This document shows positions 2,214 through 63,563 of a stretch of 64,000 nucleotides of DNA, one piece after another. Positions within the stretch are counted from its first letter, which is position 1; each line of letters opens with the position of its first letter. The notes under the pieces were generated by a model. That model was not told the origin of the DNA. It did not search any database and saw only the letters and a program-made list of their open reading frames with translations. Source of the DNA: Gluconacetobacter tumulisoli (GTDB taxonomy: Bacteria; Pseudomonadota; Alphaproteobacteria; Acetobacterales; Acetobacteraceae); the NCBI RefSeq assembly GCF_014174155.1, contig NZ_JABEQM010000005.1, forward strand, positions 186,001 through 250,000. The letters are read 5' to 3'. A program made the position numbers and the translations under genes.

Positions 2214-2295
2214 CGTCGCCCCACATGCATGCGCCCACGGGCCGCCGTCGACCCACGCGCGGGGGCGCCCGCCCCGGCCTGGAGGGGGAGGATGA

Positions 2296-3456: not shown

Positions 3457-3543
3457 GCCGGTGTTCCGTCAGAAGCGATATCGGGGGAAGAAACGAGGCG
3501 GCGGGACGTCCGCCCCTGCTCGGGCAGGACGTCCCGCATTCCC

Positions 3544-4212: not shown

Positions 4213-4220
4213 ACTCAACT

Positions 4221-4225
4221 CTCCT
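4221..4225 (-). promoter_or_regulatory. Shine-Dalgarno deciding the bcsX start
   Basis: AGGAG on the minus strand, 8 nt before ATG 4212. It favours this start over the in-frame upstream ATG at 4269, which would add 19 residues of non-conserved sequence. Confidence 0.7.
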
Positions 4226-4305
4226 GATTGCATGCGTCCGGCGGATTGCGTCCCCCGGACGGTCGACATGCCCTTCCACCTGCCCCGGGGCGGAAGGACA
4301 TGGCA

Positions 4306-28386: not shown

Positions 28387-28461
28387 GCGGGCGTAGCTCA
28401 GGGGTAGAGCACAACCTTGCCAAGGTTGGGGTCGTGGGTTCGAATCCCATCGCCCGCTCCA
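28387..28461 (+). tRNA. tRNA-Gly (GCC anticodon)
   Basis: A complete cloverleaf. The acceptor stem GCGGGCG pairs with CGCCCGC, the D-arm carries AGCTCAGGGGTAGAGC, the anticodon stem CAACC/GGTTG encloses TTGCCAA (anticodon GCC), and the T-arm carries GGGTTCGAATCCC. The CCA end is encoded (discriminator U then CCA at 28459-28461). It is the last core-chromosome feature before the accessory region, and its 3' end is the presumed attachment site of the integrated element. Confidence 0.97.
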
Positions 28462-28491
28462 GATTTTCCACGGAAAATCAGTCGGTTAAAG

Positions 28492-28513
28492 CGGCCCTTC
28501 GGGGCCGTTTTTT
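28492..28513 (+). terminator. Rho-independent terminator after tRNA-Gly
   Basis: CGGCCC-TTCG-GGGCCG stem-loop (28492-28507) followed by six T residues. The stem has 6 bp and a stable UUCG tetraloop, about 30 nt after the tRNA end. Confidence 0.9.
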
Positions 28514-28936
28514 GCTTCCCCGCCCCTGGCAGACTGACCGGGGAAGCAGGGGGGAAGCAAACGGCGGCGTAATCGCGGTCGGTTGCGGATACTCGCGGCA
28601 TGAGTCGTCTCCCATGACAGGCGTGTGACGAACGGTGGCTTTCCGCTGTTGTGACGGTCCTCTGAACCTATCCCAATCCGCGAGTTGAAGCGATGCGTTT
28701 CACGGGCCGACTTGCCTGGAGTTGCGTACCTCGCTCCGTATTCTCGTAAATCCACTGCGGCTCCAGTGTCGCCATTTGGTCGCGCCGGCGGCGAGCCATC
28801 ACGGTTTGGCCGTGTGGAATCCTGTTCCGATTATTCGGTGTGTGACCGGGAAAGAGCTAAAGGGAAGTGGCGGTTTCGCGACGGATTCAGGGGATGGAAG
28901 AGAGGCTTTCGCCCGTCCGTCGCGGAGTGTTCCATC
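28514..28936. other. Non-coding leader upstream of the ParB-like gene
   Basis: No conserved ORF is visible in this stretch. It contains an inverted repeat, CGCGACGGA (28877-28885) and TCCGTCGCG (28916-28924), ending 13 bp before the ParB-like start. That position suits autoregulation or a 5' UTR hairpin. The rest holds nothing recognised. Confidence 0.45.
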
Positions 28937-31009
28937 ATGGCAACCGCCATCCAGAAAATCACCCTTAGCCCCTCCCGTGACATCCCGTTCGGCAAGCTGG
29001 TGCTGTCGCAGGCTAACGTGCGGCGAGTAAAATCCGGCCTGTCGATCGAGGAACTGGCCGCCGACATCGAGCGCCGTGGGCTGCTCCAGAGCCTGAACGT
29101 CCGCCCGGTCCTCGACGCCGAGGGCGCGGAGACCGGCACGTTCGAGGTGCCGGCCGGCGGCCGCCGCTATCGTGCCCTGGCCCTTCTGGTCAAGCTGAAG
29201 AAGCTCACGAAGACGGCGCCGATCCCCTGCGTCGTGCGCGAAGCCGGATCGGCGATCCCGGCCGAAGAAGACTCGCTGGCAGAGAATGTCCGGCGGCTGG
29301 ATCTGCACCCGCTCGACCAGTTCCGGGCCTTCCGCGCGCTGCTGGACAAGGGCCGCTCCGAGGAGGAGATCGCGGCCCGCTTCTTCGTCACGCCAGCTGT
29401 GGTGAAGCAGCGTTTGCGCCTGACGACCGTCTCCGACAAGCTTCTGTCGCTCTATGAAGATGATAGTATCCGGCTCGATCAGCTCATGGCGTTTTCGATT
29501 TGCGATGACCCCCTGCGGCAGGAGCAGGTCTGGGAGATCGTATCCCAGGGCCATAATCGCGAACCGTATCTGATCCGCCGCATGCTGACCGAGAAAACCG
29601 TGCGGGCATCGGATCGCCGCGTGCGTTTCATCGGGCTGGGGACCTATCTCGCTGCGGGTGGGCACATCATGCGTGACCTGTTCGAGGCCGACGACGGCGG
29701 CTGGCTGCAGGATCCGACGCTGCTCGACCGGCTGCTCATAGAAAAACTCCAAGAGGCGGCCGAACAAATCCGCGCCGAAGGCTGGAAATGGGTTGAGACG
29801 GCATTGTCCTTCCCGTGGGGGCATACCCGGCAGTTTGCAGAGATCGATGGCGTGCCGGCCGCCCTTTCGGAAGACGAAGCTGCGCGTCTTGCGGCGCTGC
29901 ACAGCGAGCAGGAAATCATCGAGGCGGAATACGCGCATGCCGATGAATACCCCGAAAACGTCGATGTCCGGCTGGGTGAAATCGAACACGCCATCGAGGC
30001 TTTGGAAGAGCGCCCGTTGGCGTTCGACCCGGAGGACATTGTGCGGGCCGGCGCTTTCGTTAGTCTTGACACGGACGGCACGCTGCTGGTCGAGCGGGGT
30101 TTCGTGCGGGCGGAAGACGCGCCGGCGGAACTGGAGGAAGATGCCATTGGGGCCGAAGGCAGCGGTGAAACGACAACCTATGGAGACGGTGAAGAGACCG
30201 ATGTCGAGGTGCTCAATTCCGAGGGCGAAAAGGTCCCCGAAATCGAGCCTGAGGAGGAAGACGGACTGAAGCCGCTGCCCGACCGCCTGCTGACCGAACT
30301 GACAGCCTGGCGTACACTTGCCCTACGCGACGCCTTTGCGGCCAATCCGCATATTGCCTTGACCGAACTGCTGCACACGCTGGTTCGCGATCTCTACTGG
30401 CAGGTCTCGGGTGCGGATTGCCTGGAAGCCTATGTTCGGGACATCCCGCTGTTGGTCCATTCGCCCGATATGCCTGGCAGCGTTCCCGCTCATGAGCTTC
30501 GCCAGCGCAACGAGGGCTGGAAGCACGACCTGTCGGAGGACGAGCAGGGGCTCTGGCAGTGGCTCGACCGGCTGGACGATACCAGCCGCCTGGCACTGCT
30601 GGCCCATTGCCTGTCCTTCGGCATCAACGCGCTTTACGAGCGGATGCCGCCCTACGGTGCGGTGTCACAGCGTAGCGTCTCAGAACGACTGGCCCGCGCC
30701 GACCGGCTCGCCACCGCGCTCCGGCTCGACCTGGCCGAGGCAGGCTGGCAACCGACGGTGGACAATTATCTCGGCCGCGTCACCAAGGCGCGTATCCTCG
30801 AAGCCGTACGCGAGGCACGGGGTGACGAGGCGGCAGATCGCATCGCCCATCTGAAGAAGGCCGACATGGCACATGCGGCCGAACAGGTGCTCGACGGGTC
30901 CGCCTGGCTGCCCGAGGCGTTGCGGACAAAGGGTTTGGCGGGGCGGTCTGAGACGGCAGAAGCGCAGGTGCGCACGCCCAATAGCCCTGAAGCAGCTGCG
31001 GCGGAGTGA
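28937..31009 (+). CDS. ParB-like partition/DNA-binding protein of the mobile element
   Basis: 690 residues from ATG 28937; the longer open frame to 28685 lacks conserved sequence. The ParB/Srx N-terminal domain is seen in SKLVLSQANVRR-like sequence, LSIEELAADIERRGLLQSLNVRPV and GTFEVPAGGRRYRALALLVK, with the ENVRR box (AEDSLAENVRRLDLHPLDQF, here EEDSLAENVRRLDLHP) near residue 112. An HTH (SEEEIAARFFVTPAVVKQRLRL) follows near 140. The long acidic C-terminal half (~400 residues) is typical of the ParB-like proteins of alphaproteobacterial ICEs. It probably aids maintenance or regulation of the element. A terminator follows 20 bp after the stop. Confidence 0.88.
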   Translation: MATAIQKITLSPSRDIPFGKLVLSQANVRRVKSGLSIEELAADIERRGLLQSLNVRPVLDAEGAETGTFEVPAGGRRYRALALLVKLKKLTKTAPIPCVVREAGSAIPAEEDSLAENVRRLDLHPLDQFRAFRALLDKGRSEEEIAARFFVTPAVVKQRLRLTTVSDKLLSLYEDDSIRLDQLMAFSICDDPLRQEQVWEIVSQGHNREPYLIRRMLTEKTVRASDRRVRFIGLGTYLAAGGHIMRDLFEADDGGWLQDPTLLDRLLIEKLQEAAEQIRAEGWKWVETALSFPWGHTRQFAEIDGVPAALSEDEAARLAALHSEQEIIEAEYAHADEYPENVDVRLGEIEHAIEALEERPLAFDPEDIVRAGAFVSLDTDGTLLVERGFVRAEDAPAELEEDAIGAEGSGETTTYGDGEETDVEVLNSEGEKVPEIEPEEEDGLKPLPDRLLTELTAWRTLALRDAFAANPHIALTELLHTLVRDLYWQVSGADCLEAYVRDIPLLVHSPDMPGSVPAHELRQRNEGWKHDLSEDEQGLWQWLDRLDDTSRLALLAHCLSFGINALYERMPPYGAVSQRSVSERLARADRLATALRLDLAEAGWQPTVDNYLGRVTKARILEAVREARGDEAADRIAHLKKADMAHAAEQVLDGSAWLPEALRTKGLAGRSETAEAQVRTPNSPEAAAAE

Positions 31010-31298: not shown

Positions 31299-32018
31299 TC
31301 AGATGATAGGACAACGATCGCGTATTTTCCAGAGAGAGCGCACATGCTCAATGCGTTCTGAATCGAACTGATAGCCTAGCCCAGATATACTTGAATCTAC
31401 TTCGAAAATCAGTTTCGTTGGATAAGCTATGGCTAGGTGATCAGGAAGATAAGTGTAGAGGAAAGTGGCGTCGTCGCGATAGATTCTAAATCTCCGCCCA
31501 AGATCTAATTGATCATAGACCAAGCATCGATGCAAAGTTGGGTCCGTAAATGCATGCGTGTAATTCACATTCTCGCGATATTCTCGCAAAAAAGCGTATG
31601 CATCCTGAGAGTCTTGCGACGTAAACCAGTCATACTTAAGAACCGTCTGTCGAACTGAGTGCCAATTCCAGTGGTGGCTCGATTTACCGCCCTTGTAAAA
31701 TTTTCCAGTCGAGGCATCGAGAAGCATCTCTTCGCCCCCATTAAATGGTATGATAGAGCGTATCAGCATCATCGTCTTTATGGAGTAGAATGCTGAATAA
31801 TATAAGCGTATGATAGACCACGAAGACGATCCTTGTTGTATGCCTGAAATCGCTTCGATGTAAGAGATGATTGCCGCGTACGCCGTGTCTATTATTGCCA
31901 CTGGCATTTGTTGGACTATTGACTGCAATTCCAGCGACGAAATGCTGAATTTAGTATAAGGAGTTCCCTTAGGCTTTCCAGAGAAACCTTTCTTCGCGAG
32001 TCTTGCCGGATCTGACAT
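31299..32018 (-). CDS. HEPN-like helical protein, partner of the DGQHR gene
   Basis: 239 residues, not matched to a named family. A helical N-terminal half includes SIIRLYYSAFYSIKTMMLIR (residues 68-87), which resembles the first helix of HEPN proteins. Further on, REYRENVNYTH (residues 145-155) contains R148-x6-H155, the spacing of the HEPN RNase catalytic motif. The rest is a beta-rich C-terminal region of unknown function. It starts 17 bp after the DGQHR gene stop on the same strand, so the two form an operon. GC is visibly lower than in neighbours, indicating recent transfer. A role as an RNA-cleaving effector is inference. Confidence 0.6.
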   Translation of the reverse strand: MSDPARLAKKGFSGKPKGTPYTKFSISSLELQSIVQQMPVAIIDTAYAAIISYIEAISGIQQGSSSWSIIRLYYSAFYSIKTMMLIRSIIPFNGGEEMLLDASTGKFYKGGKSSHHWNWHSVRQTVLKYDWFTSQDSQDAYAFLREYRENVNYTHAFTDPTLHRCLVYDQLDLGRRFRIYRDDATFLYTYLPDHLAIAYPTKLIFEVDSSISGLGYQFDSERIEHVRSLWKIRDRCPII

Positions 32019-32035: not shown

Positions 32036-33055
32036 CTAGATTTTGAAACCGTGGGCGGCCGTTGCGGGCCGGAAGGCGCTGATAAGCCGATCGCGGACTG
32101 CGTTCGCTGCTTCGGTACCTCCGAGGCCCTTCACGTCAACTTGGAGAATCCTAGCCGTCTCTTCAGCATCAAGCGCATCCTTGATCGTGTCGACTTCGAA
32201 TGAAGACCGTCCCTTGCAATAATCGAACATATGGCTACGAAAGAATTCGATCGCTCCGATAAATCCCGATGCATAAATGAAGGCATTACTCCGATCGTTC
32301 CAAGAATGCCCATAAAGCGCTCGAAGCGCAGAAAAGTAATTTGAGAAAATCGCCTTTTGCATTTCGAGTTCAGTAATTCCTACCTGCTCCAGTATGCCTT
32401 TTCCATCCACCGTCGGCTTTATTGCGCTCACAGCTGTTGATAGGGCAACGCCCCCTCTTTGCCGCTCTTGGTTAGGGAGCTTTATCCAGCCGTGATAAGG
32501 CTGACCTTCGGAGCCAATGTGAGCTACGATGTCTCCGGCGCGCAAGGCTGTCGGGTCCATTAAATCGGAAGCGATGACACCATATAAATCAAATACCAAG
32601 CTCTTGGGTGCCGGACGCTGCTCAGTATTGATCGAGATGAAGATTCTAGCGCTGTTTGGCGTGTCGAGCCCCTCGTAGATTGCGACAGGTATCTCATAGG
32701 CGGCTGCAAGCGGGTTCTCTGCGATCGCATCCTTCAGTCCCGCAACTCGATGCTGACCATCTAAGATCTGCGCCAATTTCTCTTCATCTGGAATCTTAAT
32801 TGAGCTTCCGTTGGAAACAAGAGGAGCTTTATTCCAATTCAAAACGATCGAAGCTGGGAAGTCCCCAATCCTTAAAGCGAAGTCTTTTACGCCTGCGATG
32901 CGAGCACCATTCAGAACACGTTGCACGGCACCTTCCTCGACATCCTTTCGACGAACTGCGGCGTATGCAATCTTCGTCAGCAATCCCGCTGGAAGAGAGG
33001 TGAGCTTAAAGGAGTGTTCCTTCTGCTTAACGGTGATGAACGGAAAATCTGGCAT
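32036..33055 (-). CDS. DGQHR domain protein (DndB-like)
   Basis: 339 residues. The diagnostic DGQHRVAGL motif is at residues 99-107, and a ParB/Srx-like core continues into RIFISINTEQRPAPKSLVFDLYG (residues 137-159), the conserved 'F..INT.Q.P....L' block. DGQHR proteins include DndB, the regulator of DNA phosphorothioation, and others found in phage-defence islands; no dnd modification genes are adjacent here. It is the first gene of a two-gene operon with the HEPN-like protein, and both are low in GC compared with the surrounding island. The function of this copy is not established. Confidence 0.82.
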   Translation of the reverse strand: MPDFPFITVKQKEHSFKLTSLPAGLLTKIAYAAVRRKDVEEGAVQRVLNGARIAGVKDFALRIGDFPASIVLNWNKAPLVSNGSSIKIPDEEKLAQILDGQHRVAGLKDAIAENPLAAAYEIPVAIYEGLDTPNSARIFISINTEQRPAPKSLVFDLYGVIASDLMDPTALRAGDIVAHIGSEGQPYHGWIKLPNQERQRGGVALSTAVSAIKPTVDGKGILEQVGITELEMQKAIFSNYFSALRALYGHSWNDRSNAFIYASGFIGAIEFFRSHMFDYCKGRSSFEVDTIKDALDAEETARILQVDVKGLGGTEAANAVRDRLISAFRPATAAHGFKI

Positions 33056-33249
33056 AGGTCCCCGATGTGCTTTAGCGATCGTCTAAGTCGAGCGCTGCGT
33101 TTCGTATAGACTGCTGGACAATTGCATAGAATTATAGTTTCACGCTCTCTCGCACAGAAATGTTCGTTCTGCCATAGGGCGCGGACATTTTCTCGTTTCA
33201 GGCTCCGGCCAGTCCAACGGGGTTACGGATCTCTCGGTGACCCGAGCCA

Positions 33250-33795
33250 GAGCGGTTTCTGTCCGATTTGAATCATTTGGGATTCCCCGATCAGGCATGA
33301 TCTGATTCAAGGTGACGGCCGGGCCTGAATGTCGTCACGTACGTTGTCTCTTGATCTTCGGGAACGTGTTGTCGCAGCCGTGTCCGGTGGCCTGTCCCGC
33401 CGCCAAGCCGCCGAACGGTTTAGCGTCAGTCCAGCCAGTGCGATCCGCTGGTGCGCCCTGGCCCGAGAGACCGGCAGTGCCACGCCGAAGCCGCGCGGCG
33501 GCGATCGCCTCTCAGACCTGATCGAGGCGCAGGCCGCGCGTATTTGCGGCCTGATCGACGAGAAGGATGACCTGACGCTGGTCGAAATCCGGGCGCAACT
33601 GGATGAAGAAGGCCATCATTTCCGCGTCGGCTCGCTGTGGCGCTTCTTTGCCCAGCACCGGATCACATGGAAAAAAAAGACCGCCCATGCGGCAGAGCAA
33701 GACCGACCGGACGTCCTGAAGCGTCGGCAAGACTGGTTCGACAGTCAGCCTACCTAGACGACGACAGACTGCGCCGTCAGCGTGGTGCTCGCGTC
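33250..33795 (+). mobile_element. Truncated IS630-family insertion sequence (left part)
   Basis: The left end is likely near GAGCGGTTTCTGTCCGATTTGAAT. An inverted TTGAATCA/TGATTCAA pair (33268-33275 and 33303-33310) precedes the transposase start. Only the DNA-binding half of the transposase remains; similarity stops around 33790, next to an alternating TA run (IS630 elements insert at TA). Exact ends cannot be set by eye. Confidence 0.6.
33329..33757 (+). pseudogene. IS630-family transposase, N-terminal fragment
   Basis: 142 residues with the HTH region (LDLRERVVAAVSGGLSRRQAAERF, VSPASAIRWCAL) and the linker WRFFAQHRITWKKKTAHAAEQDRPDV, ending at FDSQPT. A stop appears where an intact transposase would continue into its first catalytic Asp; the expected L-D-D-D-R-L stretch is present in another frame, so a frameshift precedes the deletion. 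The DDE domain is missing, so it is inactive. Confidence 0.85.
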
Positions 33796-34288
33796 GATAT
33801 ATATATGTAAATGAACAAGCTCTTCTGGGCCCGGCATAGCGCATCCCTGAATGCTTCAAATGAGCGCGGAACCGTCTCTAATGAATATCTCTTGAACGAC
33901 CGCTTTCCTTGTCCCGCCGCCCGGAACCGGACGGCCTGGTTTCCCCGCCAAGCTCTCCATCTGCTCAACGGTCGTTGGTCGGATAGGCGGCAGCCGCCTC
34001 AACGCAGACATTGGGCACGGCGACCTCCATTCCCGTTAGCGGACATGACTTAAATCACAGCACAGCAGCCGGCTTGGGCCGAGAGCGGACTGGCGGCCTT
34101 CGGGTCAGAGTATCGTGGAAGTGGATACGTGCGCATTATCGGCGGGCACGGCTGTCATAGGGCCGGTTTCGGGCTGGCACCTATCGGCGTGCAAGGGGCG
34201 ATGCCTGATTTTATGCAGATAGCCACGTTGCAGATTCGGCCAGTTCCACCAGTATCTTGGGCGGCACTTTATTTTGAGGGGGACGCAA
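33796..34288. other. Intergenic region between IS630 remnant and the STAND gene
   Basis: About 490 bp without a recognisable gene or promoter. Composition shifts from A+T-rich near the IS end to G+C-rich toward the STAND gene. The region probably includes the promoter for that gene. The only confident element is the Shine-Dalgarno at its end. Confidence 0.4.
34276..34282 (+). promoter_or_regulatory. Shine-Dalgarno deciding the TTG start of the STAND gene
   Basis: GAGGGGG, 6 nt before TTG 34289. It favours this start over TTG 34274, which lies upstream of the SD, and over ATG 34319, which has no SD. Confidence 0.6.
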
Positions 34289-37200
34289 TTGGCTAGCGAA
34301 ACGCCACGGACACCTAGAATGAACGCGGGTGGGCGGGCAACCGAAGCTGGGATGGACTTCCAGGCCGAGGTCGGCACTTGGCTCGCCGCCCATCTGCTGG
34401 CGCGGATGCCGGTTGGCAGGCGTTTCGGCCTTGCCAACACCGCCTTGCTGGCCTCAATCCAGCTTGAAACCGGCGACGGGCTCGACGACATCCGTGTGGA
34501 ACTGGACGACGCTGGCCGCATCGACCTGCAGAGCAAGACCAGCGCCGGGCTGGACACCAGTCCTAAGAGCCCGCTCGGCAAGACCATCAGCCAGCTTGTT
34601 CGCGTCATGATCGATGCCCGCGCCGCTGGCGTCGTGGGCGATCCGGCGAAAGCGAGCGCCGTGCTGGCGGTTGCCGCCAATGCGCCGCGCACGCTCGACG
34701 TGCTGGAGCGCGGGTGCCGAGCATTCGATCTTGGTGGCAGCTGGGCAACCACCAAGGCCGGGAGATCCTCGACCGAGCGGGACGCGCTCGATCTCTTCGA
34801 GACCCATGCGCGAATCGCATGGTCGACGCACTCTGCCCGGCCGCCGACCGACGACGAGTTCGCGATGATGGCGCGGCTGTTCCGCATCGTGCGCTTCTCA
34901 ATGAACGAGGGCGAAGACAATTGGCGAGAAGCTTCGCGGCTGCTCGGCGCACGGCTTTATGGTTCGGAAGCCGCCGGCGACGCGCCGTTGCGCGAGTTGA
35001 AGGGCATCATCCGGGGCATGATCGGCAGCGGCGCGTCCGCGAATCGTGTCGGCTTGCTGCGCGAGCTTCGTCGGCTGGGCCACAATGAGGTTGGCGCGGC
35101 AGACTACACCGTCGATCTGGAGCGCCTGTCGGCCGCGACCGAGACCGAGCTTGCGCGTCTCGCCGGACACACGCGCCTGCCGATCGCCGGCGGCATTCCG
35201 ATCGCGCGGGCCAGCGACGGTCCGCTTGGCGCGGCGGTCGATACAGGCTCGCTGATCGTCATCGGTGAGCCCGGCGCTGGCAAGACCGGTGCGCTGGTCA
35301 CGCTGGCGCACGCGCGCCGCGTGGCGGGCGACACGGTAGTGTTCCTCTCAGTCGATCGCTTCCCGGGCGTCGCCATCGCTGCCGATCTCCAGTCCGATCT
35401 GGGGTTGGCGCACCCGCTGACCGAGGTGCTCGCCGCCGCGCCGGGTTCGGGACGCAAGCTGCTCGTCATCGATGCGCTGGATGCCGCGCGCGGCGGTCCG
35501 GCGGAGGGCGTGTTCGCCCAGTTGATCGAGGGGCTGGGAGTATCGGCGCCGGACTGGACCGTCATCGCCTCGATCCGCACGTTCGATCTGCGCAACGGTC
35601 GGCGGTTCCGCGACGCCATGCTGGGCACTTCACCCGATCCGGCTTATGCGGCGACGGGCTTGGGCAATGTCCGGCATTTCCAGGTGCCGCGGCTCGCGGA
35701 CGATGATCTCGACGCCGCCGGCGTCGCTGCCGCCGATCTTGGCGGGCTGCTTGCCGCCGCGCCCGACAAGCTGCGCGACCTGCTGCGCAACGTCTTCAAC
35801 CTCTCGCTCGCCGCGCAACTGCTCGCTGATGGCGCAAGCCCCGACAGCATCCGCACCGCCGCCACCCAGTCAGATCTGATCGACGCCTATGAGGATCGTC
35901 GGCTCGTTGGAACATCGGTGCATCAGGCCGCAGCTGCGACGGTCGGTGCCATGGTGCAGCGCCGCCGTCTCGCGGTGCGGAAGGTGGTCGTCGGGCATGA
36001 TCAGCTCGACATGGTCATCCAAACCGGCGTGCTTGCCGAATCTGGCGATCTGGTCAGCTTTGCCCATCATGTGCTGTTTGACCATGTCGCCGGTCGCTTT
36101 TTTCTCGAATGGGACGATCCCGCGCGGCTGATCTCCCAGCTCGGCGGTGACAGCTCAATCGCGCTCATGCTCGCACCGGCGCTGCGCTTCGCGATCGAGC
36201 GGCTGTGGCGGCATGATGCAGGCGGCAAGGCGCGCGTCTGGCGCCTGATAGCCGATATCTACGCCGATCCGGCGGTCGATCCGGTGCTCGCCAATGGCGC
36301 ATTGCGCACCGCGATTGAGCGCGTGGGCACGCAGGCTGATATCGCGGGGCTAGTCGCGCTGATCGCGGCCCGCGCGAGCGACGAGGCATTGGCGACGATG
36401 CTCTCGCGGCTTGCCCGCTTCGTCAGTCTGGCGGTCGATGCAGTCGGCAGCGCCGTGCCGGACGAAGCGCTCGCCTGGGCGATGGTCGCCGACGCCGCGA
36501 TCAGGGCGGGCTCGCGCGGCCTTTCCGACGCGACGCGCATCCTGCTCCACACCTTGTTCGACAAGGGCAATCTCGCCGAACCTGAGTTGGTCAATGTGTT
36601 CAACCGCGTCGCGCGGGCGCTGCTGGCCTTTGCCTGGGCCGCCGATCCACCGATGCAGCAGACGGCGACCAACGCGATCCGCTTCGTCGGCAAGAGCTTC
36701 GCGGCCGATCCCGCCGCGTCGCGGGCATCGCTCGACCGGATGCTCCGTGATCCGCATTTTTCGGCCCATGCCGACAAGGAGGCGACCTGGCTTTCCGAGC
36801 AGATCATGCCGATCGCGCGGGCCGACGCCGATTTCGCAATCGAGATCTACCGCGTGCTTTACTCGCGCGACATCACCGATAACAGCACCTCGTTCATGGG
36901 CGGGCACGCGAGCCGGATCATGCCGCTCTCGTCCAACCGCAGCCAGGATTACCGTCACTGCCGCTATAATCTGGGCCGGCAGGTCACACGCCTCCTCGAA
37001 CTGTCGGTGCTGTTGGGCACCCGCGCGATCGTGGAGGCATCGCTCGGTGACACCGATCGCGCGGGGCCCTTGGGCGATCGCAAACAGGTCGTCGTGCCGG
37101 ACCGCGCGTCGTTCGACCTGCTCGGTCACGATCATGAGTATAGGGCCTGGGACGACACGAAGGATCGCCACGGCACGCAGGACGACGATGTGCTCGCGCA

Positions 37201-39214
37201 ACTCGTCGCGCATCTGCGTAGCTGCTCGCCTGCCGCCTTTGCCGAGACGGTCGATGCGGCCGCAACCGGCTATGCCGGGCCAGCGGTGTGGACGCGTATC
37301 CTCGGCATCGGCGCCGAGCGCGTCGGCGAGGTCGGAGACCTGTTGTGGCCGTTCGCATGCAACATCACGATCCTGGCGCACGGCGATATTGTCCGCGACG
37401 CCGTCCGCTTTTTGGCGGCGGTCTATCCGTCGCGTTCGCTTTCCGAGCGGGCGGCATTCGAGGACGAAGCGCTGCGGGCAAGTCTGTTTACGGGTGAAGC
37501 CGAGCAGCGTTGGTGGCGCCGCACGCTCAGCCGCTTCCTCTCGCTGGTCGATGCGGGCGTAACCGCGACCGATCCGATGCGTGCGCTGCGCGAGGAACTA
37601 ATGGCGGCGGACGAACTGGCCGGCAACCCGCCGACGCGCTCGATGTTGGTGCGCTGGGAATCGTCGCGCGGCGCCGTGCGCGAGCAACTCGCCAGTGAAG
37701 GCGTCGATGTCGAGGGAGGCGTGGATGCCAAGATAATTTCTCGGTCCGAGGCGCTCGCCGAGAAAGTGGAGGCCACGCCCTCGTCCAGCGGCGGCCTGGG
37801 GCTCGCCGAGCTTTGGGCAGACGTGTTGGCGACGATCGGCTTATACGATGCTCATGCCGATACACTGCACGCGAAGGTCGAGCAGCTAGCCTGGGGGCGT
37901 ATCAGTGATGCGGTCAAGCGCATCGCCGGCGCCACAGCCTATATGCCTGGCATCGATGACATGCCGTCGATCGAGAAACTGCTCGCCGTGTTGCGGCGGC
38001 TATGGGCGAACCGCTTCCCGTCAACCAGCGAGAAGGGCGACGATTCCAGGCTGTGCTGGGGAGATAGCGACGTGCGCGTCAATGCGGCCAGTGCCTATGT
38101 CTCTCTCGCTGATAGGTTCGGCGAAGATTATGGCGAGATCGTTGATATCTTCGATGCTATCCTCGACGATCCGGCTCCACAGGTCCGCCTGAAGGCAGTG
38201 CAGAATTTGCAGGTTCTGAGCCGCATCGCGCTCAACAGGATGTGGGCCCTGGCCGAGCGCGTCGCGCGAAATGAGGCACACATCGAGGTGCTCAGAGACC
38301 TCCTGCACGATGTGATCCGGCATTTCATTCGCCACGATGTCGAGAAGTGCAAACCGATCATCGAGATCGTCCGCACCCGCTGCGAGACGGCCAAGTGCGA
38401 CAACGGACCTGCCTGCAACGAGGTCGCCGAAGAGCTCGGCGGCCTGACTGCACAGCTCTGGTGCTGGCAAGCAGAGACGTTCGCGCTCGGATGGCTCAAG
38501 GCCTGGGCCAGCGATCCTGCTACGCACCGTGAGTTCTGCACCGCCTTCCTGTCGATGTTGCGCGGCGCGTTCTTCGCCCGCTATGCGGATGGCGAAGAGC
38601 GCGACGTCGGGCTTGCCGATCGCTCGCAACAGGCGGCGATGGTCATTCTGGAGGCGTGCTCGGCGGCCGCAGAAGCTAGCCATGCTGCGGTAACGGGCGG
38701 GACGGTAGAGGGCGCCGAGCGCGATGCCACCATCGCCACCTACAGGGCGGCGGAGTCGGTGATCAGCCACCTTACGAACCAGCTCTACTTCGGCTCGGGC
38801 GCGTATGCCGGTAACCGCGAGGCGGCTGTCGGCCTTATGTCGCTCGACGCGAAGCGACGGTTCCTTGTCGATTTTCGCCCGATGCTCGCGCTGCTGGCGG
38901 CGTCGCACGAACCTTCGACGCATCATCGCCTCGTCGAACTCTACGAGTTTCTAATCCCCGGCGATCCGCCCGCCGTGTTCGACGCGCTCCATGTATTGCT
39001 TACAGGCCCGGCCGCGCAAGAGGGGTATCATCACGAAGGTCTTGCCGCGCCGGTCATCGTGCGGATGATCACCCGCTACATCGCTGATCATCGTTCGATC
39101 TTCGAGGATGACACGCGCCGCTCCGCGCTCGTCGAGATCCTACGCCTGTTCTCCGACGTCGGTTGGTCGGACGCGTTGAAACTGCTTTATGAACTCCCCG
39201 ACCTGCTTCGCTGA
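34289..39214 (+). CDS. Large nuclease-STAND NTPase protein, AVAST-like immune sensor candidate
   Basis: 1641 residues. The N-terminal ~100 residues resemble PD-(D/E)xK (Cap4/Mrr-type) nucleases: an acidic DD pair in GDGLDDIRVELDD (residues 64-73) and IDLQSKTS with a QxK at 81-83. In the middle, a P-loop GEPGAGKTG (about 326-334) and a Walker B LLVIDALDAARG (about 391-402) mark a STAND-type NTPase. From about 600 to the end are long helical repeats with no named domain. This nuclease-STAND-repeat layout is that of Avs (AVAST) proteins, which detect phage proteins through the repeats and then activate the nuclease. It stands alone between broken IS copies. TTG start is chosen on the SD. The Avs subtype and trigger are unknown. 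Confidence 0.72.
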   Translation: MASETPRTPRMNAGGRATEAGMDFQAEVGTWLAAHLLARMPVGRRFGLANTALLASIQLETGDGLDDIRVELDDAGRIDLQSKTSAGLDTSPKSPLGKTISQLVRVMIDARAAGVVGDPAKASAVLAVAANAPRTLDVLERGCRAFDLGGSWATTKAGRSSTERDALDLFETHARIAWSTHSARPPTDDEFAMMARLFRIVRFSMNEGEDNWREASRLLGARLYGSEAAGDAPLRELKGIIRGMIGSGASANRVGLLRELRRLGHNEVGAADYTVDLERLSAATETELARLAGHTRLPIAGGIPIARASDGPLGAAVDTGSLIVIGEPGAGKTGALVTLAHARRVAGDTVVFLSVDRFPGVAIAADLQSDLGLAHPLTEVLAAAPGSGRKLLVIDALDAARGGPAEGVFAQLIEGLGVSAPDWTVIASIRTFDLRNGRRFRDAMLGTSPDPAYAATGLGNVRHFQVPRLADDDLDAAGVAAADLGGLLAAAPDKLRDLLRNVFNLSLAAQLLADGASPDSIRTAATQSDLIDAYEDRRLVGTSVHQAAAATVGAMVQRRRLAVRKVVVGHDQLDMVIQTGVLAESGDLVSFAHHVLFDHVAGRFFLEWDDPARLISQLGGDSSIALMLAPALRFAIERLWRHDAGGKARVWRLIADIYADPAVDPVLANGALRTAIERVGTQADIAGLVALIAARASDEALATMLSRLARFVSLAVDAVGSAVPDEALAWAMVADAAIRAGSRGLSDATRILLHTLFDKGNLAEPELVNVFNRVARALLAFAWAADPPMQQTATNAIRFVGKSFAADPAASRASLDRMLRDPHFSAHADKEATWLSEQIMPIARADADFAIEIYRVLYSRDITDNSTSFMGGHASRIMPLSSNRSQDYRHCRYNLGRQVTRLLELSVLLGTRAIVEASLGDTDRAGPLGDRKQVVVPDRASFDLLGHDHEYRAWDDTKDRHGTQDDDVLAQLVAHLRSCSPAAFAETVDAAATGYAGPAVWTRILGIGAERVGEVGDLLWPFACNITILAHGDIVRDAVRFLAAVYPSRSLSERAAFEDEALRASLFTGEAEQRWWRRTLSRFLSLVDAGVTATDPMRALREELMAADELAGNPPTRSMLVRWESSRGAVREQLASEGVDVEGGVDAKIISRSEALAEKVEATPSSSGGLGLAELWADVLATIGLYDAHADTLHAKVEQLAWGRISDAVKRIAGATAYMPGIDDMPSIEKLLAVLRRLWANRFPSTSEKGDDSRLCWGDSDVRVNAASAYVSLADRFGEDYGEIVDIFDAILDDPAPQVRLKAVQNLQVLSRIALNRMWALAERVARNEAHIEVLRDLLHDVIRHFIRHDVEKCKPIIEIVRTRCETAKCDNGPACNEVAEELGGLTAQLWCWQAETFALGWLKAWASDPATHREFCTAFLSMLRGAFFARYADGEERDVGLADRSQQAAMVILEACSAAAEASHAAVTGGTVEGAERDATIATYRAAESVISHLTNQLYFGSGAYAGNREAAVGLMSLDAKRRFLVDFRPMLALLAASHEPSTHHRLVELYEFLIPGDPPAVFDALHVLLTGPAAQEGYHHEGLAAPVIVRMITRYIADHRSIFEDDTRRSALVEILRLFSDVGWSDALKLLYELPDLLR

Positions 39215-39371
39215 CGATGACCCAACCCGGCTATCGCGGAAGATCTGGCCAAGCTGCTGGATCTTGCGAGGACTCCAGATGAACCAAACGGCCACGTTCG
39301 GAGGCGCCTTCTCACACATCGAACAGCGGCTGAATTCGCGCTCATCCCGCACGCCTAGGTAATAACAACGG

Positions 39372-39660
39372 TTATTGGCACTGACCTGTGTGAGCCCACT
39401 TCCTGAGCCCGATGGATCGGATGGTGTCAGGCAGGGCGGCAAGGTTATTCCAAGCGGAACAGGCGGCGTCGATGATGTGCTCGATGCCATCGAAGACGGT
39501 ATTGGACAGCCAGTTGGCGCGGAGGATCTGCCAGACATTCTCGACCGGGTTCAGTTCGGGCGCGCGTGACGGCAGAAAGATCAGGCTGACGTTGCGGGGC
39601 AGCTTCAGCTTGTCGGTAGTATGCCAGCCGCTCGGGGTCGTCTGGCGAAAGGAACGACGC
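39372..39660 (-). pseudogene. IS630-family transposase, C-terminal fragment
   Basis: Read on the minus strand: GWHTTDKLKLPRNVSLIFLP, then SRAPELNPVENVWQILR with the catalytic Glu of the DDE triad, then WLSNTVFDGIEHIIDAACSAWN and the C-terminal IGLRKWAH. The N-terminal and DDE Asp regions are missing, replaced by unrelated sequence joined at about 39660. It is in opposite orientation to the 33329 fragment and is probably a separate copy. Confidence 0.85.
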
Positions 39661-40366: not shown

Positions 40367-41836
40367 ATGATGCGCAAGCTTCTCGGTCCCATTTCGCGCC
40401 ACGTGGCGGGTCTCATGGTTGCCATCAGCCCGCTGATGGCCGGTGGCGCCGCCTTGGCCGCCAGCACGCCGCTGGTGACTGATATCCTGCCGTCGGGCGT
40501 GCCGCTGCCCTCTCCTGCACCCGGATTCGTGCTGCCGGCGGAGGATTCCAGCACCGAACTTCTGGGCGAGGCCGGGGGTGCGCGGCCCTGGCTGGCCCGT
40601 CATGGTATCCGCGTCAATATTCAGGATGTCGAGGAGTTATGGGGCGTCGCGGCAGGTGGTCTTCAGCCCGGACCTACCTATGATGGCATGACGGCTATGG
40701 CCCTGATGTTCGATACCCGGCGCGGCTTCGGCTGGCCCGACGGGCTGCTGAACGTCAGCGCGTTGCAGATCCGTGGCCGGTCGCTGACGGGTGAACGGCT
40801 CGGCGCAGTGAATGCCGTCAGCGGCTATGACGCGGGCCGTTCGACCCGTTTGTTCGAACTCTGGTATGATCAAGGATTCTTCGCGAACCGGCTGGATATC
40901 CGTCTAGGGTCAATCGATCTCGATACCGAGTTCCTCGTCAGCCAGAACGCCTCCTTCTTCCTCAATTCCAGTTTTGGCTGGCCACTCTCGACCTCCAGCA
41001 ACCTGTATTCCGGCGGGCCGTCCTGGCCGTTTTCGGCCTTGGGGGCGCGGGTGAAATGGGTGCCTACCTATGCGCTGGTGCTGATGGGTGCCGTTACCAA
41101 TGACAATCCGACAGGTGGCCCGTTCTACAGCGACGTCGCCCCCACGCAGCGCGATCCCTCTGGCACCGCGTTTTCTACCAGAGGAGGCACGCTGTTCATT
41201 GGCGAGGCCCAGCTTTCGCTCGATCTTGCCCGCCGGTTCGCCGGCAAGGACGCGCCGGCCCTTCCAGGCACGTGGAAGCTCGGCGGGCTCTACGACACCG
41301 GCCGTTTCCCCGATCAACGATACGACAGTCGTGGCGGCCTGCTGGCCGAGCCGGACAGCACCGGCCAGCCGCTCTATCATCATGACAACTGGATGGTCTT
41401 CATGGTGGCCGACCAGATGATCTGGCGGGCGTCTTCGGAGTCGAGCAAGACCATCAGCCTGTTCGTGCGCGCCACCGCCAATGACGGTTCGCGCAACCGG
41501 TTTTCGACCGAAATCCAAGGTGGCGTGACGTTCGACGGGCTGGTTCCGGGCCGGACCGACGACACGATCGGTATCGCCTGGGGGACCGGGTTCTACGGCA
41601 GTCGTGCGATCGGTAATGCGCGCGACGCCGCGCGCCTGGGCACCAGCCTGGCAGGCGCGCTGAAGCCCGAGCAGCATATCGAAGCGACCTATCAGGCCGC
41701 CGTGACCCCGTACCTCATAATCCAGCCCGATTTTCAATATTTCTGGCATGTTGGCGGCACGTCGTTCGATCCCCAGACGGGGCGGCCGATCGGCAATGGT
41801 GTCGTGCTGGGCGTAAACGTGACCACCACGTTCTGA
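40367..41836 (+). CDS. OprB-family carbohydrate-selective porin
   Basis: 489 residues. An N-terminal signal peptide (RHVAGLMVAISPLMAGGAALA, cleavage after ALA) precedes a beta-barrel-rich body. Family features are LARHGIRVNIQDVEELWGVAAGG, RLFELWYDQGFFANRLDIRLGSIDLDTEF and the C-terminal strand ending in FDPQTGRPIGNGVVLGVNVTTTF, with the terminal Phe needed for outer-membrane assembly. OprB porins admit glucose and other sugars. It sits between a pit remnant and ppk2, possibly a cluster for phosphate-linked or sugar uptake; the substrate here is unknown. Confidence 0.88.
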   Translation: MMRKLLGPISRHVAGLMVAISPLMAGGAALAASTPLVTDILPSGVPLPSPAPGFVLPAEDSSTELLGEAGGARPWLARHGIRVNIQDVEELWGVAAGGLQPGPTYDGMTAMALMFDTRRGFGWPDGLLNVSALQIRGRSLTGERLGAVNAVSGYDAGRSTRLFELWYDQGFFANRLDIRLGSIDLDTEFLVSQNASFFLNSSFGWPLSTSSNLYSGGPSWPFSALGARVKWVPTYALVLMGAVTNDNPTGGPFYSDVAPTQRDPSGTAFSTRGGTLFIGEAQLSLDLARRFAGKDAPALPGTWKLGGLYDTGRFPDQRYDSRGGLLAEPDSTGQPLYHHDNWMVFMVADQMIWRASSESSKTISLFVRATANDGSRNRFSTEIQGGVTFDGLVPGRTDDTIGIAWGTGFYGSRAIGNARDAARLGTSLAGALKPEQHIEATYQAAVTPYLIIQPDFQYFWHVGGTSFDPQTGRPIGNGVVLGVNVTTTF

Positions 41837-58202: not shown

Positions 58203-58964
58203 ATGTCCACGCCCCTATCCCGTCCCCCGCTGGAGGCGCTGCGGGACCAGATCCGCCGCCTCGAAGGATCGGCCACCCGCCGGCGGGCCGTGCTGCCCTT
58301 TGGCATCCGTGACATCGATCGCCGCCTGCCGGGTGGCGGCCTGGCGCTCGGCGCCTTGCACGAGGTGGCAGGCGGCGGGAACGACGCTCTCAACAGCGCG
58401 GCCGCCGGGCAGTTTGCCGCCGGCATCGCCGCGCGCACCAAGGGCAAGGTGCTGTGGATCGTCACCCGCCAGGATCTGTTCGCCCCCGCCCTGAAACAGG
58501 TCGGACTGGGCGGGAGCCGGGTGATCTATGTCGAGGCTGGGGCGGACCAGGATGTCCTGGCCTGCTTCGAGGAGGGGCTGCGGCATGGCGGTCTGGGCGC
58601 CGTCGTGGCTGAGGTCGCGCGCCTGTCGATGACCGCCTCCCGCCGGCTGCAACTGGCGGCCGAAACGTCCGGCGCGCTGGGGATCGCCGTCCGCCGCTGG
58701 CGACGGCAGACCGAGGCGGCTGATTTCGGCCAGCCGACCGCCAGTGTCACGCGCTGGCGGATTTCGGTCCTGCCGTCCGAAACCCTGCCGGTGCCAGGCG
58801 TCGGACGGGCGCGCTGGCTGCTGGAACTGATCCGGGCGCGGGCCGGGGAATCCGCCGATTTCGAAGTGGAGGCTTGCGATGGCAAGGGTCGTCTCTCTCT
58901 TCCTGCCGCTGTGGCCGACGGACCGGATCAGGAAAAGGCTGGGCGCCGACGCACCCGCGCCTGA
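58203..58964 (+). CDS. imuA: ImuA, mutasome accessory protein
   Basis: 253 residues. RecA/SulA-like fold: RRAVLPFGIRDIDRRLPGGG then ALGALHEVAGGG at the place where RecA has its P-loop, but the GKT is not conserved. ImuA supports ImuB and DnaE2 in error-prone translesion synthesis. First gene of the SOS-regulated imuA-imuB-dnaE2 operon; its 3' end overlaps imuB by 86 bp in another frame. Confidence 0.9.
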   Translation: MSTPLSRPPLEALRDQIRRLEGSATRRRAVLPFGIRDIDRRLPGGGLALGALHEVAGGGNDALNSAAAGQFAAGIAARTKGKVLWIVTRQDLFAPALKQVGLGGSRVIYVEAGADQDVLACFEEGLRHGGLGAVVAEVARLSMTASRRLQLAAETSGALGIAVRRWRRQTEAADFGQPTASVTRWRISVLPSETLPVPGVGRARWLLELIRARAGESADFEVEACDGKGRLSLPAAVADGPDQEKAGRRRTRA

Positions 58965-60402
58965 GGCGCCGCTGGCGCTGGTCGGGCGCGAGGGACGACG
59001 CCGCGTCGTGCTGTCGGTTGACCTCGCCGCCCGCAAGGCGGGCGTGCGCCCTGGCACACCAGTCGCCAAGGCGCAGGCGCTTTACCCTGATCTGATCATC
59101 ATGGATGCCGACCAGGAGGGCGACCGGATCGGGCTGGAGAAGCTGGCGCTGTGGTTCCAGCAGCGGATCGCCCCCCTGGTGGCGGTGGATGTGCCGGACG
59201 GTCTGGTGCTGGATACGACGGGCGCCGATCATCTGCATGGCGGCGAGCCGGCCATGCTGGCGGAGATGGTGCGGCGGCTGCGAGAAGCCGGCATCACCGC
59301 CAAGGCTGTGGTCGCCGACACGCTGGGCGCGGCCCATGCGCTGGCGCGCTATGGCCGTGCGCGCGCCCTGGTGGTGTCGGCCGGGGAGACGGCCGCCACG
59401 ATCGCGGACCTGCCGATCGAGGCCCTGCGCCTGCCGGACAATATGATCGAGGGCCTGCGGGCGCTGGGCGTCGCGACCATCGCTTCGCTCGCCGCGATGC
59501 CACGCGCGCCGCTGGCGCTCCGCTTCGGGCCGGACGTCGCCCGCCGGCTGGACCAGGCTTATGGTCGCATCAGTGAGGCCATCTTGCCGGTTCGGCCGGT
59601 TGACCCGGTCACGGTCAGCCGGAATTTTGCCGAGCCGATCGGGGCCGCCGAGACGATCGCCCGCTATATCGGCAAGCTGGTCCTGCCGCTCTGTCAGGGA
59701 CTGGAAGAGCGCGGGCAAGGAGCCCGGCGTCTCGACCTGGTGCTGCACCGCGTCGACAGCCGCACCGAGGCGATCCGCATCGCCACCGCGACGCCGGTGC
59801 GTGACGTCAAACGCCTGACCAGGCTGCTGTGCGAGAAGATCGAAACCATCGATCCGGGCTTTGGCATCGAGCGTATGGTCCTGACCGCCACGCTGGCCGA
59901 GCCGATCGCGCCGCGCCAGAAAATCTCCTCGCTGATCGCGGAGGAGGAGCCCGATGTCTCGGATCTGATCGACACCTTGGCCAATCGTGTCGGCCATCAT
60001 TCCCTGTACCGCTTCGCTCCGGTGGAGAGCGATGTGCCGGAGCGGTCCTTCTGCCGGGTGCCGGCGCTGGCACCGGACGACCAGAAGGACTGGCCCCATC
60101 ACTGGCCCCGGCCGACCCGGCTGCTGCCGCGGCCGGAGCCGATCGAGACGATGGCCGTGCTGCCGGACCATCCGCCGGTGTTCTTCGTGTGGCGCGGCAT
60201 TCGCCGCCGGGTGAAATGCGCCGACGGTCCGGAGCGGGTGTTCGGCGAATGGTGGCAGGGGGATGCCGAACTGACCACGGTGCGCGATTATTTCCGTCTG
60301 GAAGACACGTCCGGCGAGCGGTTCTGGGTCTATCGGTCGGGCGACGGCGAGCACGGTGAAACCGGCTCGCAGGGGTGGTTTCTGCACGGGATCTTCGGAT
60401 GA
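58879..60402 (+). CDS. imuB: ImuB, Y-family polymerase-like protein
   Basis: 507 residues. [20 protein letters not shown] and [26 protein letters not shown] show the Y-family polymerase fold, but the catalytic acidic residues of active polymerases are not seen, as is typical of ImuB, which serves as the hub linking ImuA, DnaE2 and the sliding clamp. The start overlaps imuA by 86 bp. Stop TGA overlaps dnaE2 ATG (ATGA), so translation is coupled. Confidence 0.92.
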
Positions 60403-63400
60403 CCCGCTACGCCGAATTGCAGGTGACGAGCTATTTCTCGTTCCTGCGCGGGGCGTCATCGCCGCTTGAACTGTTCGAGCAGGCGAAGGCGCTCGGTATC
60501 GCGGCGCTGGGTGTCGCCGACCGCAATTCCCTGGCCGGCATGGTGCAGGCCCATGTCGCGGCGAAGGCCTCCGGCGTCCGGCTGGTCGTCGGCTGTCGCC
60601 TCGACCTCGCCGATTTCCCGCCGGTGCTGGTCTATCCGACCGACCGCGCAGCCTACGGCCGCCTATGCCGGCTGCTCAGCCTGGGCAAGAGCCGTGCCGG
60701 CAAAGCCAGATGCCATCTGCTCTGGGAAGACCTGGTGGCCTGGGGCGACGGGTTGCTCGCCATCCTGGTCCCCGACGTCGCGGACGAGGCCTGCGCCCTG
60801 CATCTGCGCAAGCTGAAGGATGCGTTCCATGACCGCGCTTACATGGCGCTGACCCTGCTGCGCCGGCCCAATGACCAGATGCGGCTCTATGAACTGGCGA
60901 ACCTGGCCCATCAGGCACGCGTGCCGACCGTGGTGACCAACGATGTGCTGTTCCACACCCACGACCGCCGCATCCTGCAGGATGTCGTGACCTGCATTCG
61001 GCACAATACCACCATCGACGAGGCGGGTTTCGCGCGTGAGCGCCATGCCGATCGCTATCTCAAGCCACCCCAGGAGATGGCGCGTCTGTTCGGGCGCTAT
61101 CCCGAGGCGGTCGACCGCACGATTGCGATCATGGAGCGCTGTCGCTTCAGCCTCGATGACCTGGCCTACCAATATCCCGATGAAGTCTCGGTGCCGGGCC
61201 AAACGCCGCAGCAGGCCCTCGAAGCGCTGACCTGGGAAGGGGCGCGGTCATTCTATCCCGAAGGGATTCCTGACGAGGTAACGGCCAGCCTGAATCACGA
61301 ACTCGCCCTGATCGGCCGGATGCAATACGCGCCGTATTTCCTCACCGTGAACAGCATCGTCCGCTATGCCCGCAGCCAGGACATTCTCTGTCAGGGGCGT
61401 GGCTCGGCGGCCAATAGTGCGGTCTGCTATGTGCTGGGCATCACCGCCATCGATCCGGCGCGCAATTCGCTGCTGTTCGAGCGGTTCGTATCGGAGGAGC
61501 GGGGCGAGCCGCCGGATATCGACGTCGATTTCGAACACGCCCGGCGCGAGCGGGTGATTCAATGGGTCTATGGGCATTATGGCCGTGAGCGCGCCGCCCT
61601 GACCGCGGTGGTGATCCGCTATCGCGCCAAGGGCGCGTTGAGGGATGTGGGTAAAGTGATGGGCCTGCCGGAGGATCTGATCGGCACCTTGTCCGGTCAG
61701 ATCTGGGGCTGGTCGAAAAATGCCGATCCGGAGCAGTTCAGGGACACCGGCATCGACCTGTCCGATCGGCGCATCCGGCTGACGCTGGATCTGGCGTGCT
61801 GCCTGATTGGTGTCCCGCGCCACCTCTCGCAGCATCCGGGAGGCTTCGTGCTGACCCATGACCGGCTCGACGAGCTGGTGCCGATCGAGCCCGCCGCGAT
61901 GGATGATCGTCAGATCATCGAATGGGACAAGGACGATATCGACGTCCTCAAATTCATGAAGGTCGATATCCTGGCGCTGGGCATGCTCACCTGCATGAAA
62001 AAGGGGCTCGACCTGCTGGCCGAGCATAAGGGGCAGCGCTTCGCGCTCGCCACCATCCCGGCCGAGGATCCGCTGACCTACGCCATGATCCGCCGGGCGG
62101 ACACGATCGGCGTCTTCCAGATCGAGAGCCGCGCCCAGATGTCGATGTTGCCGCGCCTGAAGCCGCGCGTGTTCTACGACCTGGTGATCGAGGTTGCCAT
62201 CGTCCGCCCCGGTCCGATTCAGGGTGATATGGTCCATCCCTATTTGCGCCGGCGTGAGGGCATCGAGCCGGAAGAGTATCCCACCCCGGAACTGGAAAAG
62301 GTTCTGAAAAAGACCTTGGGCATCCCGCTGTTCCAGGAACAGGCGATGCAGGTGGCCATGGTGTGCGCTGATTTCACCGCCAGTGAGGCCGATCAATTAC
62401 GTCGCGCGATGGCCACCTTCAAGAACACCGGCACGATCGGCCGGTTCCAGACCAAGCTGATCGAGGGCATGAAGGCGAACGGCTATACGGAAGAATTCGC
62501 CGAGCGGATCTACCTGCAGCTCGAAGGGTTCGGATCCTATGGATTCCCGGAGAGCCACGCCGCGAGTTTCGCGATTCTCTCTTATTCCTCCTCCTGGCTG
62601 AAATGCCATCATCCTGATGTGTTTCTGGCCGCCTTGCTCAATTCCCAGCCGCTTGGCTTCTACGCGCCCGCGCAACTGGTGCGCGATGCGCGCGAGCATG
62701 GTGTCGAGATCCGGCCGATCTGCGTCGACGCTTCCCGCTGGGACAGTAGGCTAGAAGGACCGGAAACGGCGGGCGGCCGGTTCGCCGTCCGGCTCGGCAT
62801 GAGCCTGGTCAAGGGTCTGGCCAACACCGACGCCGCCCGCATCGTGGCGGCGCGCGGGGCGCGGCCCTTCGCATCGGTGGACGATCTCTGGCGCCGCGCC
62901 GGCGTGCCGGTCGCGGCACTGACCCATCTCGCGGAAGCCGATGCCTTCCGGCCGGCGCTCGGCCTCGCCCGACGCGAGGCGCTATGGGCGATCAAGGCGC
63001 TGCGGGACGAGCCTTTGCCACTGTTCGCGGCGGCGGCGGTCGCCCGCGAGGCCGAGGAGCCGGACGTGCTGCTCCAGCCGATGCGCGCCGGGGCCGAGGT
63101 CACGCGCGATTATAACCGGATCGGCCTGACGCTGCGCGATCATCCCGTCTCCTTTCTCCGCGACGATCTGCGCCAGCGGAAATTTTTTTCCTGCCGTGCG
63201 GCCCTGGACGCGCGCGACGGCAAGCGGCTGGATGCCGCGGGCCTGGTTCTGGTCCGTCAGCGCCCGGGCTCCGCCGAAGGCGTCGTGTTCCTGACCCTGG
63301 AGGATGAAAGCGGCGTCCTCAATGTCATCATCTGGAAGGATATTTTCGAAAAATATCGCCGCGTCGTCCTCGCGGGGCAAATGCTCGGCATCAAGGGGCG

Positions 63401-63563
63401 GCTCCAGAAAGAAGGCGAGGTCGTGCATCTGGTGGCGCTCGAGATCACTGATCTCTCCGCCCTGCTCGCCGATGTCGGCAACCGCGATTTCGACCGGGTC
63501 CACGGGGCCGTCGCAGATCGTTCTGTCGAGACACTCTCCGTAAAATCAAGAAACTTTCATTGA
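60399..63563 (+). CDS. dnaE2: DnaE2, error-prone DNA polymerase III alpha-like
   Basis: 1054 residues. N-terminal PHP-like domain ([21 protein letters not shown], with the usual metal-binding His replaced), then the C-family polymerase core with catalytic PDIDVDFEH near residue 370. [17 protein letters not shown] and [14 protein letters not shown] follow, with a C-terminal OB-fold ([17 protein letters not shown]) near 960. DnaE2 carries out mutagenic translesion synthesis with ImuA/B under SOS control. Coupled to imuB by a 4-base overlap. A copy on a mobile element would be in addition to the host's DnaE. Confidence 0.95.

Follow-up and report, generated by a model that had tools for sequence, protein, structure and literature searches.

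Proteins of the PDC-M54A family may form a conserved nuclease-STAND chassis that recruits interchangeable effectors encoded by neighbouring genes (PDC-M54B, SduA, LA2681-type HEPN and perhaps OLD-like and DUF4365 proteins), a reading that we advance tentatively and rate a little short of evenly balanced. The member analysed here lies in a window of 64,000 nucleotides (the whole stretch of DNA examined); it is genuine and intact, an Avs-like nuclease-STAND protein whose family is already catalogued though uncharacterised. What is new here, and worth following, is how partner genes are exchanged around a single conserved sensor. The original prediction for this locus had overlooked both the PDC-M54A family and the missing partner gene. 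The features concerned are the following:

33241..33758 (+), second IS630-type remnant, 5' part of the transposase, upstream of the gene (homology)
34275..34283 (+), purine-rich ribosome-binding-like stretch TGAGGGGGA, 5' of the TTG (sequence)
34289..39214 (+), PDC-M54A-like nuclease-STAND protein, 1641 aa, TTG start (open reading frame, PADLOC, alignment)
34331..34678 (+), PD-(D/E)xK-like nuclease domain, residues 15-130 (predicted model, invariance)
34484-34489 (+), D66-D67, and 34529-34537 (+), Q81-K83 (invariant residues)
35192..36103 (+), STAND/NACHT-like NTPase module, about residues 302-605 (model, Foldseek, invariance, Pfam matches of family members)
35264-35290 (+), Walker A GEPGAGKT, residues 326-333 (sequence)
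35459-35494 (+), Walker B LVIDALD, residues 392-398 (sequence)
36119..39211 (+), putative C-terminal sensor region, about residues 611-1641, HEAT-like in part (Pfam HEAT)
39215..39326 (no strand), spacer homologous to the spacer between this gene and HEPN in Gemmobacter, stopping 19-20 bp before the HEPN start position (blastn)
39359..39634 (-), IS630 remnant, 3' part of the transposase, just past the spacer (homology)

The gene (hereafter A; PDC-M54B is called B) is open without interruption from either of two in-frame TTG codons, 34274 or 34289, to the stop at 39214 (+), giving 1646 or 1641 aa. The TTG at 34289 is common to both nearest relatives (L003 and L026) and is preceded in the window by the purine-rich stretch, in keeping with the single 1641-residue frame, TTG start and strong Shine-Dalgarno sequence originally proposed. 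Annotations of three related plasmids (L003-L005) start A at a later methionine (MDFQ); homology favours the upstream start in all three, and L004 and L005 give a further argument, since by our reading of the junctions the stop codon of a preceding SduA gene overlaps an ATG in frame with A. A scan for sigma-70 promoters found 0, against a mean of 0.9 in shuffled sequence.

The best PADLOC model, PDC-M54A, matched residues 3-1641 of 1641 with 1185.6 bits. The PADLOC library contains AVAST models, and none of them matched the window protein at E values up to 10, all matches being to the three PDC-M54A models; the original reading saw no obvious match of the repeat region to a named Avs class, but the protein as a whole belongs to a family that already had a name. 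In PADLOC-DB, PDC-M54 is a two-gene candidate system (A models PDLC04700-04702, B models PDLC04703-04706). The available text of PMC12988326 describes PDCs as putative candidates from guilt-by-embedding, mostly unvalidated, and a literature search found no paper naming PDC-M54. The full-length match, together with pairwise dN/dS values of 0.155-0.197 (Nei-Gojobori) within the trio of window copy, L003 and L026, argues that the frame is real and more than a chance one.

Residues E60, D66, D67, Q81 and K83 did not vary among the 10 proteins aligned, nor among the 21 of a wider set. An AlphaFold2 model of residues 1-660 (mean pLDDT 86.5, pTM 0.65), built from an 8-row alignment of the window protein and seven relatives, places helices at 15-37 and 95-112 and strands at 54-59, 68-72, 77-83 and 122-129. 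We read this helix-strand-strand-strand-helix-strand order of residues 15-129 as PD-(D/E)xK-like topology, with D66/D67 and Q81-K83 positioned in the model as we would expect for such nucleases. The alpha-beta-beta-beta-alpha-beta core and the conserved acidic and (Q/E)xK residues that mark the PD-(D/E)xK superfamily were thus found, the core in the predicted model and the residues in 21/21 proteins, and the foreseen QxK nuclease-like motif sits at the expected residues (D66, D67, Q81 and K83) on a fold that suits it. Pfam assigned no nuclease family to the window protein, nor was there one among the 25 families listed of 31 when ten family members were scanned.

In the NTPase module, G326, G331, K332, D395 and D398 were identical in the same 10/10 and 21/21 proteins; S428, R430, F503, N504, H593 and H594 are further invariant residues. 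A Foldseek search of residues 1-660 against the PDB ranked Avs4 (8dgf, E 3.2e-12) and Avs3 (8dgc, E 4.1e-12) first, followed by NLRP14, NLRP3, NLRP9 and NLRC4, with EfAvs5 at rank 22 and the LmuA nuclease at rank 40. Pfam gave only sub-threshold AAA and HEAT matches to the window protein, and NCBIfam gave none; across ten members the Pfam matches (E up to 0.5) were weak yet recurrent, with AAA_22 in 10, AAA_16 in 7, NACHT in 6, HEAT in 6 and nSTAND3 in 5. The NACHT-like fold with Walker A and B motifs, the NLR structures among the top Foldseek matches and the NACHT and nSTAND3 matches of family members place the predicted P-loop and Walker B NTPase in the STAND class. As for the helical repeats that had been proposed to extend over more than 1000 residues, the long C-terminal region is present, and repeats in it are weakly suggested by one sub-threshold HEAT match in the window protein (residues 1285-1312, E 0.031) and by HEAT matches in 6/10 members (best E 0.00011).

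The domain arrangement resembles that of Avs proteins, which the available text of PMC12931631 describes as an N-terminal effector, a central NTPase and a C-terminal sensor: model and Foldseek support the first two parts, and the long C-terminal region would be the third. Over the whole 1-660 model, the TM-scores to Avs4 and Avs3 reach only 0.29 and 0.24 (TMq), with an rmsd of about 26 Å, which suggests that the domains correspond while their relative placement differs. With sequence profiles A1 and A2, the strongest PDB match was 9n00 (E 6.4e-10 and 1.3e-14, respectively), and no Avs chain appeared among the 60 PDB matches listed of 66 (A1) and of 108 (A2). Membership of Avs1-5 was therefore rejected on the absence of AVAST models and of Avs chains among the matches listed; of the original Avs-like assignment, the nuclease-like domain, the NTPase and the long C-terminal region are supported and the membership is not, and we keep the protein as one that, by analogy, may work like an Avs. 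The closest solved protein by profile is the 1523-aa 'AAA family ATPase' of 9n00/9n01/9yix. The stretches that score are the NTPase, the region downstream of it and a short HEAT-like piece, whereas the alignment over DD...QxK contributes no score by itself (-1.8 bits) and 9n00 is not among the best 50 Foldseek rows for residues 1-660. Searching the literature for these three PDB codes returned no paper and no published name.

The PDC-M54A family is rare. Counting the window's own genome, A was found in 2/240 genomes drawn from the class (the second carrier has a fragment with internal stops), 3/347 from the taxonomic family and 5/299 from the phylum (two broken or fragmentary); 3/297 genomes from the order of another carrier had it, that carrier included. 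At the survey cut-offs 0/14 control genomes matched, except at one loose cut-off, where three did. Fourteen plasmid records match A, nine of them covering 80% or more of its length, and 8/14 are predicted to be conjugative. No match was found in 50,697 phage records or in two scans of viral contigs, and a phage origin of A was rejected on these grounds. Within the genus, block 34203-39326 occurs only in the own genome among the matches listed for 14 genomes (13 others), which fits an accessory gene; the OprB-PPK2 flank, again among matches listed, is present at 81-86% identity in six other genomes, and a seventh has it split in two.

Partner genes were counted over 21 A copies, window included. 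The 21-protein tree left out fragments and contig-end copies (L002, L018, L023/L025 and L024), the split copy L034 and repeats of one locus (L001 = window; L020 = L026; L019 = L027 = L012; L021 = L028; L022 = L029; L037 = L040 = L016; L038 = L039). Among the plasmid matches, H5 (same scores and positions as H4) and the partial H13 and H14 were left out. In L034 (4938-9831), an Agrobacterium plasmid, the A gene is broken into separate open frames and is likely a pseudogene.

B lies directly downstream of A in 6/21 loci (L007, L008, L009, L014, L017 and L028); the annotations of L007-L009 have the two genes overlapping by 4 bp. An alignment of the six B proteins shows a common N-terminal D-Y-G ... 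E-A-K motif, which we read as PD-(D/E)xK-like, and a C-terminal Cys/His cluster. Pfam gave a chance-level HSDR_N match over the D-Y-G ... E-A-K stretch (E 0.25) in one of three B proteins scanned, and in a scan of three at E up to 0.1 no nuclease support for it.

A different enzyme adjoins A in two plasmids of Rhizobium CB782 and Agrobacterium T29 (L004 and L005), whose A proteins are 62% identical to that of the window. Directly upstream of A stands the Shedu gene sduA (DUF4263; PADLOC E 4e-148 and 2e-141), which is not in the window. Shedu is a defence nuclease in its own right. Between the two plasmids SduA is 84% and A 83% identical, and their main homology block consists of SduA, A and about 120 bp, with one further common block at 15674-16923 of L004.

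The two nearest relatives of the window copy, on Gemmobacter plasmid p3 (L003, 80%) and in a genome of the window's taxonomic family (L026, 79%), have yet another neighbour. The gene 3' of A encodes in both an LA2681-type HEPN protein (PF18733) with weak TPR matches, which is absent from the window. The two HEPN proteins are 88% identical, and A and HEPN together make up a common DNA block of 6.65 kb; measured from the aligned HEPN methionine, the genes are separated by 106 bp (L026) and 122 bp (L003). We read an Rx4H motif, RNALEH, in the L026 HEPN. The available text of PMC3710099 lists LA2681-type HEPN as a TPR fusion and does not mention a STAND partner there. Four other LA2681-HEPN loci had A in 0/4 and a helicase gene near HEPN in 3/4, so adjacency alone is weak evidence.

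Single cases completed the set: an OLD-like TOPRIM gene about 100 to 290 bp upstream of A, depending on the start codon (L029), and a DUF4365 gene 186 bp downstream of it (L035). The latter, from Streptomyces canus (L035:9798-12779), encodes 994 aa with weak HEAT matches. Eight of the 21 copies have no recognised partner, that is, no B, SduA, HEPN, OLD or DUF4365 gene beside A, a definition that leaves room for other partners; A may thus work alone. Candidates outside these labels are a HARE-HTH gene 105 bp upstream of A in L015 and HipA in L010. In L039, a 1521-aa gene (1630-6192) about 480 bp upstream of A matched nothing in PADLOC (E up to 0.001) or the PDB (E up to 0.01).

Defence-type neighbours (SduA, LA2681-HEPN, Abi_C, DUF262, Vsr and a DNA methyltransferase) were seen in several relatives, and some A genes have ordinary ones (sugar-transport genes in L007, an efflux pump in L008). 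Divergent from A in Gemmobacter is a NACHT protein (L003:4942-8457, -) whose N-terminus weakly matches LmuA (E 1.3e-4) and the PDC-M54A N-terminus (E 2.3e-4), which suggests a common nuclease-type domain. Around the A-HEPN pair of L026 (2389-9307 and 16270-19878) are an 890-aa gene with no clear PADLOC match, PDC-S36 (NOV_C) and a DUF4062-AAA-TPR protein; these surroundings are likely a defence island.

On the 21-protein tree, partner labels jointly cluster (7 changes versus a shuffled mean of 11.6; 0/200 shuffles as low), part of this being contributed by near relatives and near-copies. Taken singly, B clusters (7/500 shuffles as low) and so does SduA (18/500), but HEPN does not (500/500). 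The window copy, L003 and L026 form a clade with 100/100 support, which is sister to the SduA pair, again with 100/100; the grouping of the window with L003 (93/90) is below the tool's strong level.

Against this background the window copy appears orphaned. It matches PDC-M54A over its full length, but no PDC-M54B or remnant of it is in the window, and its clade is accompanied by HEPN or SduA instead. Homology to L003 runs from 34203 to 39326, through the A-HEPN spacer, and that to L026 only from 34225 to 39223. The Gemmobacter homology thus ends about 20 bp before the HEPN start, where an IS630 remnant follows, and we conclude that the HEPN partner appears to have gone next to it. The simplest reading is that the common ancestor of the window copy, L003 and L026 had HEPN and that the window lost it. 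A tblastn search of the window for a HEPN remnant gave a best E of 1.5 (chance level). In the own genome HEPN_LA2681 had no match, a weak absence since the control matched nowhere, and one of the four B models had none either. IS630-type remnants do flank the gene on both sides, as predicted, whereas the single-gene state, which had been taken as natural, appears secondary.

By branch, dN/dS is 0.215 for the window copy versus 0.164 and 0.182 for its two sisters; the window branch partly predates any loss, so these low values are no proof of present function, and without HEPN the system could have become non-functional here.

We consider it probable, by analogy, that A serves in immunity as an NLR-like (STAND) sensor carrying its own nuclease, triggered through its C-terminal region and leading to cell death or arrest. 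At rest, the long C-terminal region and a nucleotide-bound NTPase would keep the protein inactive. Binding of a phage or plasmid infection product by the C-terminal region would allow the NACHT-like module to drive assembly, bringing together N-terminal PD-(D/E)xK domains (E60, D66/D67, Q81, K83) that would cut DNA and so kill or arrest the infected cell. This sequence from ligand to assembly to nuclease is modelled on Avs, whose Avs1-4 nucleases cut phage and host DNA according to the available text of PMC12931631. In relatives, a separately encoded PDC-M54B, SduA or LA2681-type HEPN would probably be recruited as a second effector, and the window copy would act through its own nuclease alone.

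The roles might instead be reversed, the adjoining enzyme being the essential effector, A its sensor or regulator and the window copy a decaying relic. The overlapping codons of SduA and A in two plasmids and of A and B in three annotated loci, the homology blocks made up of SduA plus A or A plus HEPN, the B gene 3' of A in 6/21 loci and the lack of a match to the one B model in the own genome (with the weaker absence of HEPN_LA2681) all speak for such dependence. The nuclease motif of A is nevertheless invariant in 21/21 proteins, partner-bearing copies included, 8/21 copies have no recognised partner, and the window frame is intact with a dN/dS only slightly above its sisters; we regard the relic reading as unlikely. 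Equally improbable, in our judgement, is that A is a stand-alone system and its association with HEPN, SduA and B the coincidental company of a defence island. The helicase, not A, found near HEPN in 3/4 other loci agrees with coincidence, as do the uninformative HEPN label and the small number of cases (HEPN and SduA twice each, each pair closely related; OLD and DUF4365 once each). Overlapping codons, homology blocks spanning both genes and the joint clustering of labels, to which near-copies contribute, argue the other way.

That A is a true AVAST protein sensing terminase or portal is favoured by the same domain order and by Avs4 and Avs3 as best structural matches. Against it stand the PADLOC search, which gave no AVAST model at E up to 10, and the two profiles, which found 9n00 and no Avs chain among the PDB matches listed. 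Published Avs proteins moreover sense terminase, portal and other proteins, as the available text of PMC12931631 has it, and we hold this identity to be very unlikely.

If the chassis reading is true, PDC-M54A would be a bacterial NLR with two enzymes to switch on simultaneously, its built-in nuclease and a swappable second one, and natural orphans such as the window copy would show the chassis surviving without the latter. Accessory genes accompany some Avs types. For most bacterial NLR-like sensors, according to the available text of PMC12931631, the effector is described as part of the sensor protein itself. Here the neighbours of one sensor family with an invariant nuclease centre come from at least three gene families, and twice the coupling to a Shedu gene is direct. 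Should the sensor really activate its partners, STAND control would extend to Shedu and LA2681-HEPN in these loci, and natural swaps and an orphan would be available for testing effector choice.

Elsewhere in the window, a tRNA-Gly (28387-28461) followed by a 774-aa ParB-like gene (28387-31009 in all) is a plausible island edge; integration at the tRNA was rejected, as no exact direct repeat of 14-30 nt from that region was found elsewhere on the + strand of the window. A DndB/DpdB-like gene lies at 32036-33055 (-; Pfam DndB E 1.8e-15, PADLOC DpdB 2e-8), adjoined by a 239-aa gene (31299-32018) with no Pfam or PADLOC match, where GC falls to 49%. ARAGORN called a tRNA-Ile at 41644-41732 (-) inside the OprB porin gene (40367-41836), probably falsely. 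At 58879-63563 (+), a DNA polymerase IV-like gene (ImuB type by our reading, below the curated cut-off) overlaps that of an error-prone DNA polymerase (DnaE2-like), and the two likely form an SOS mutagenesis cassette.
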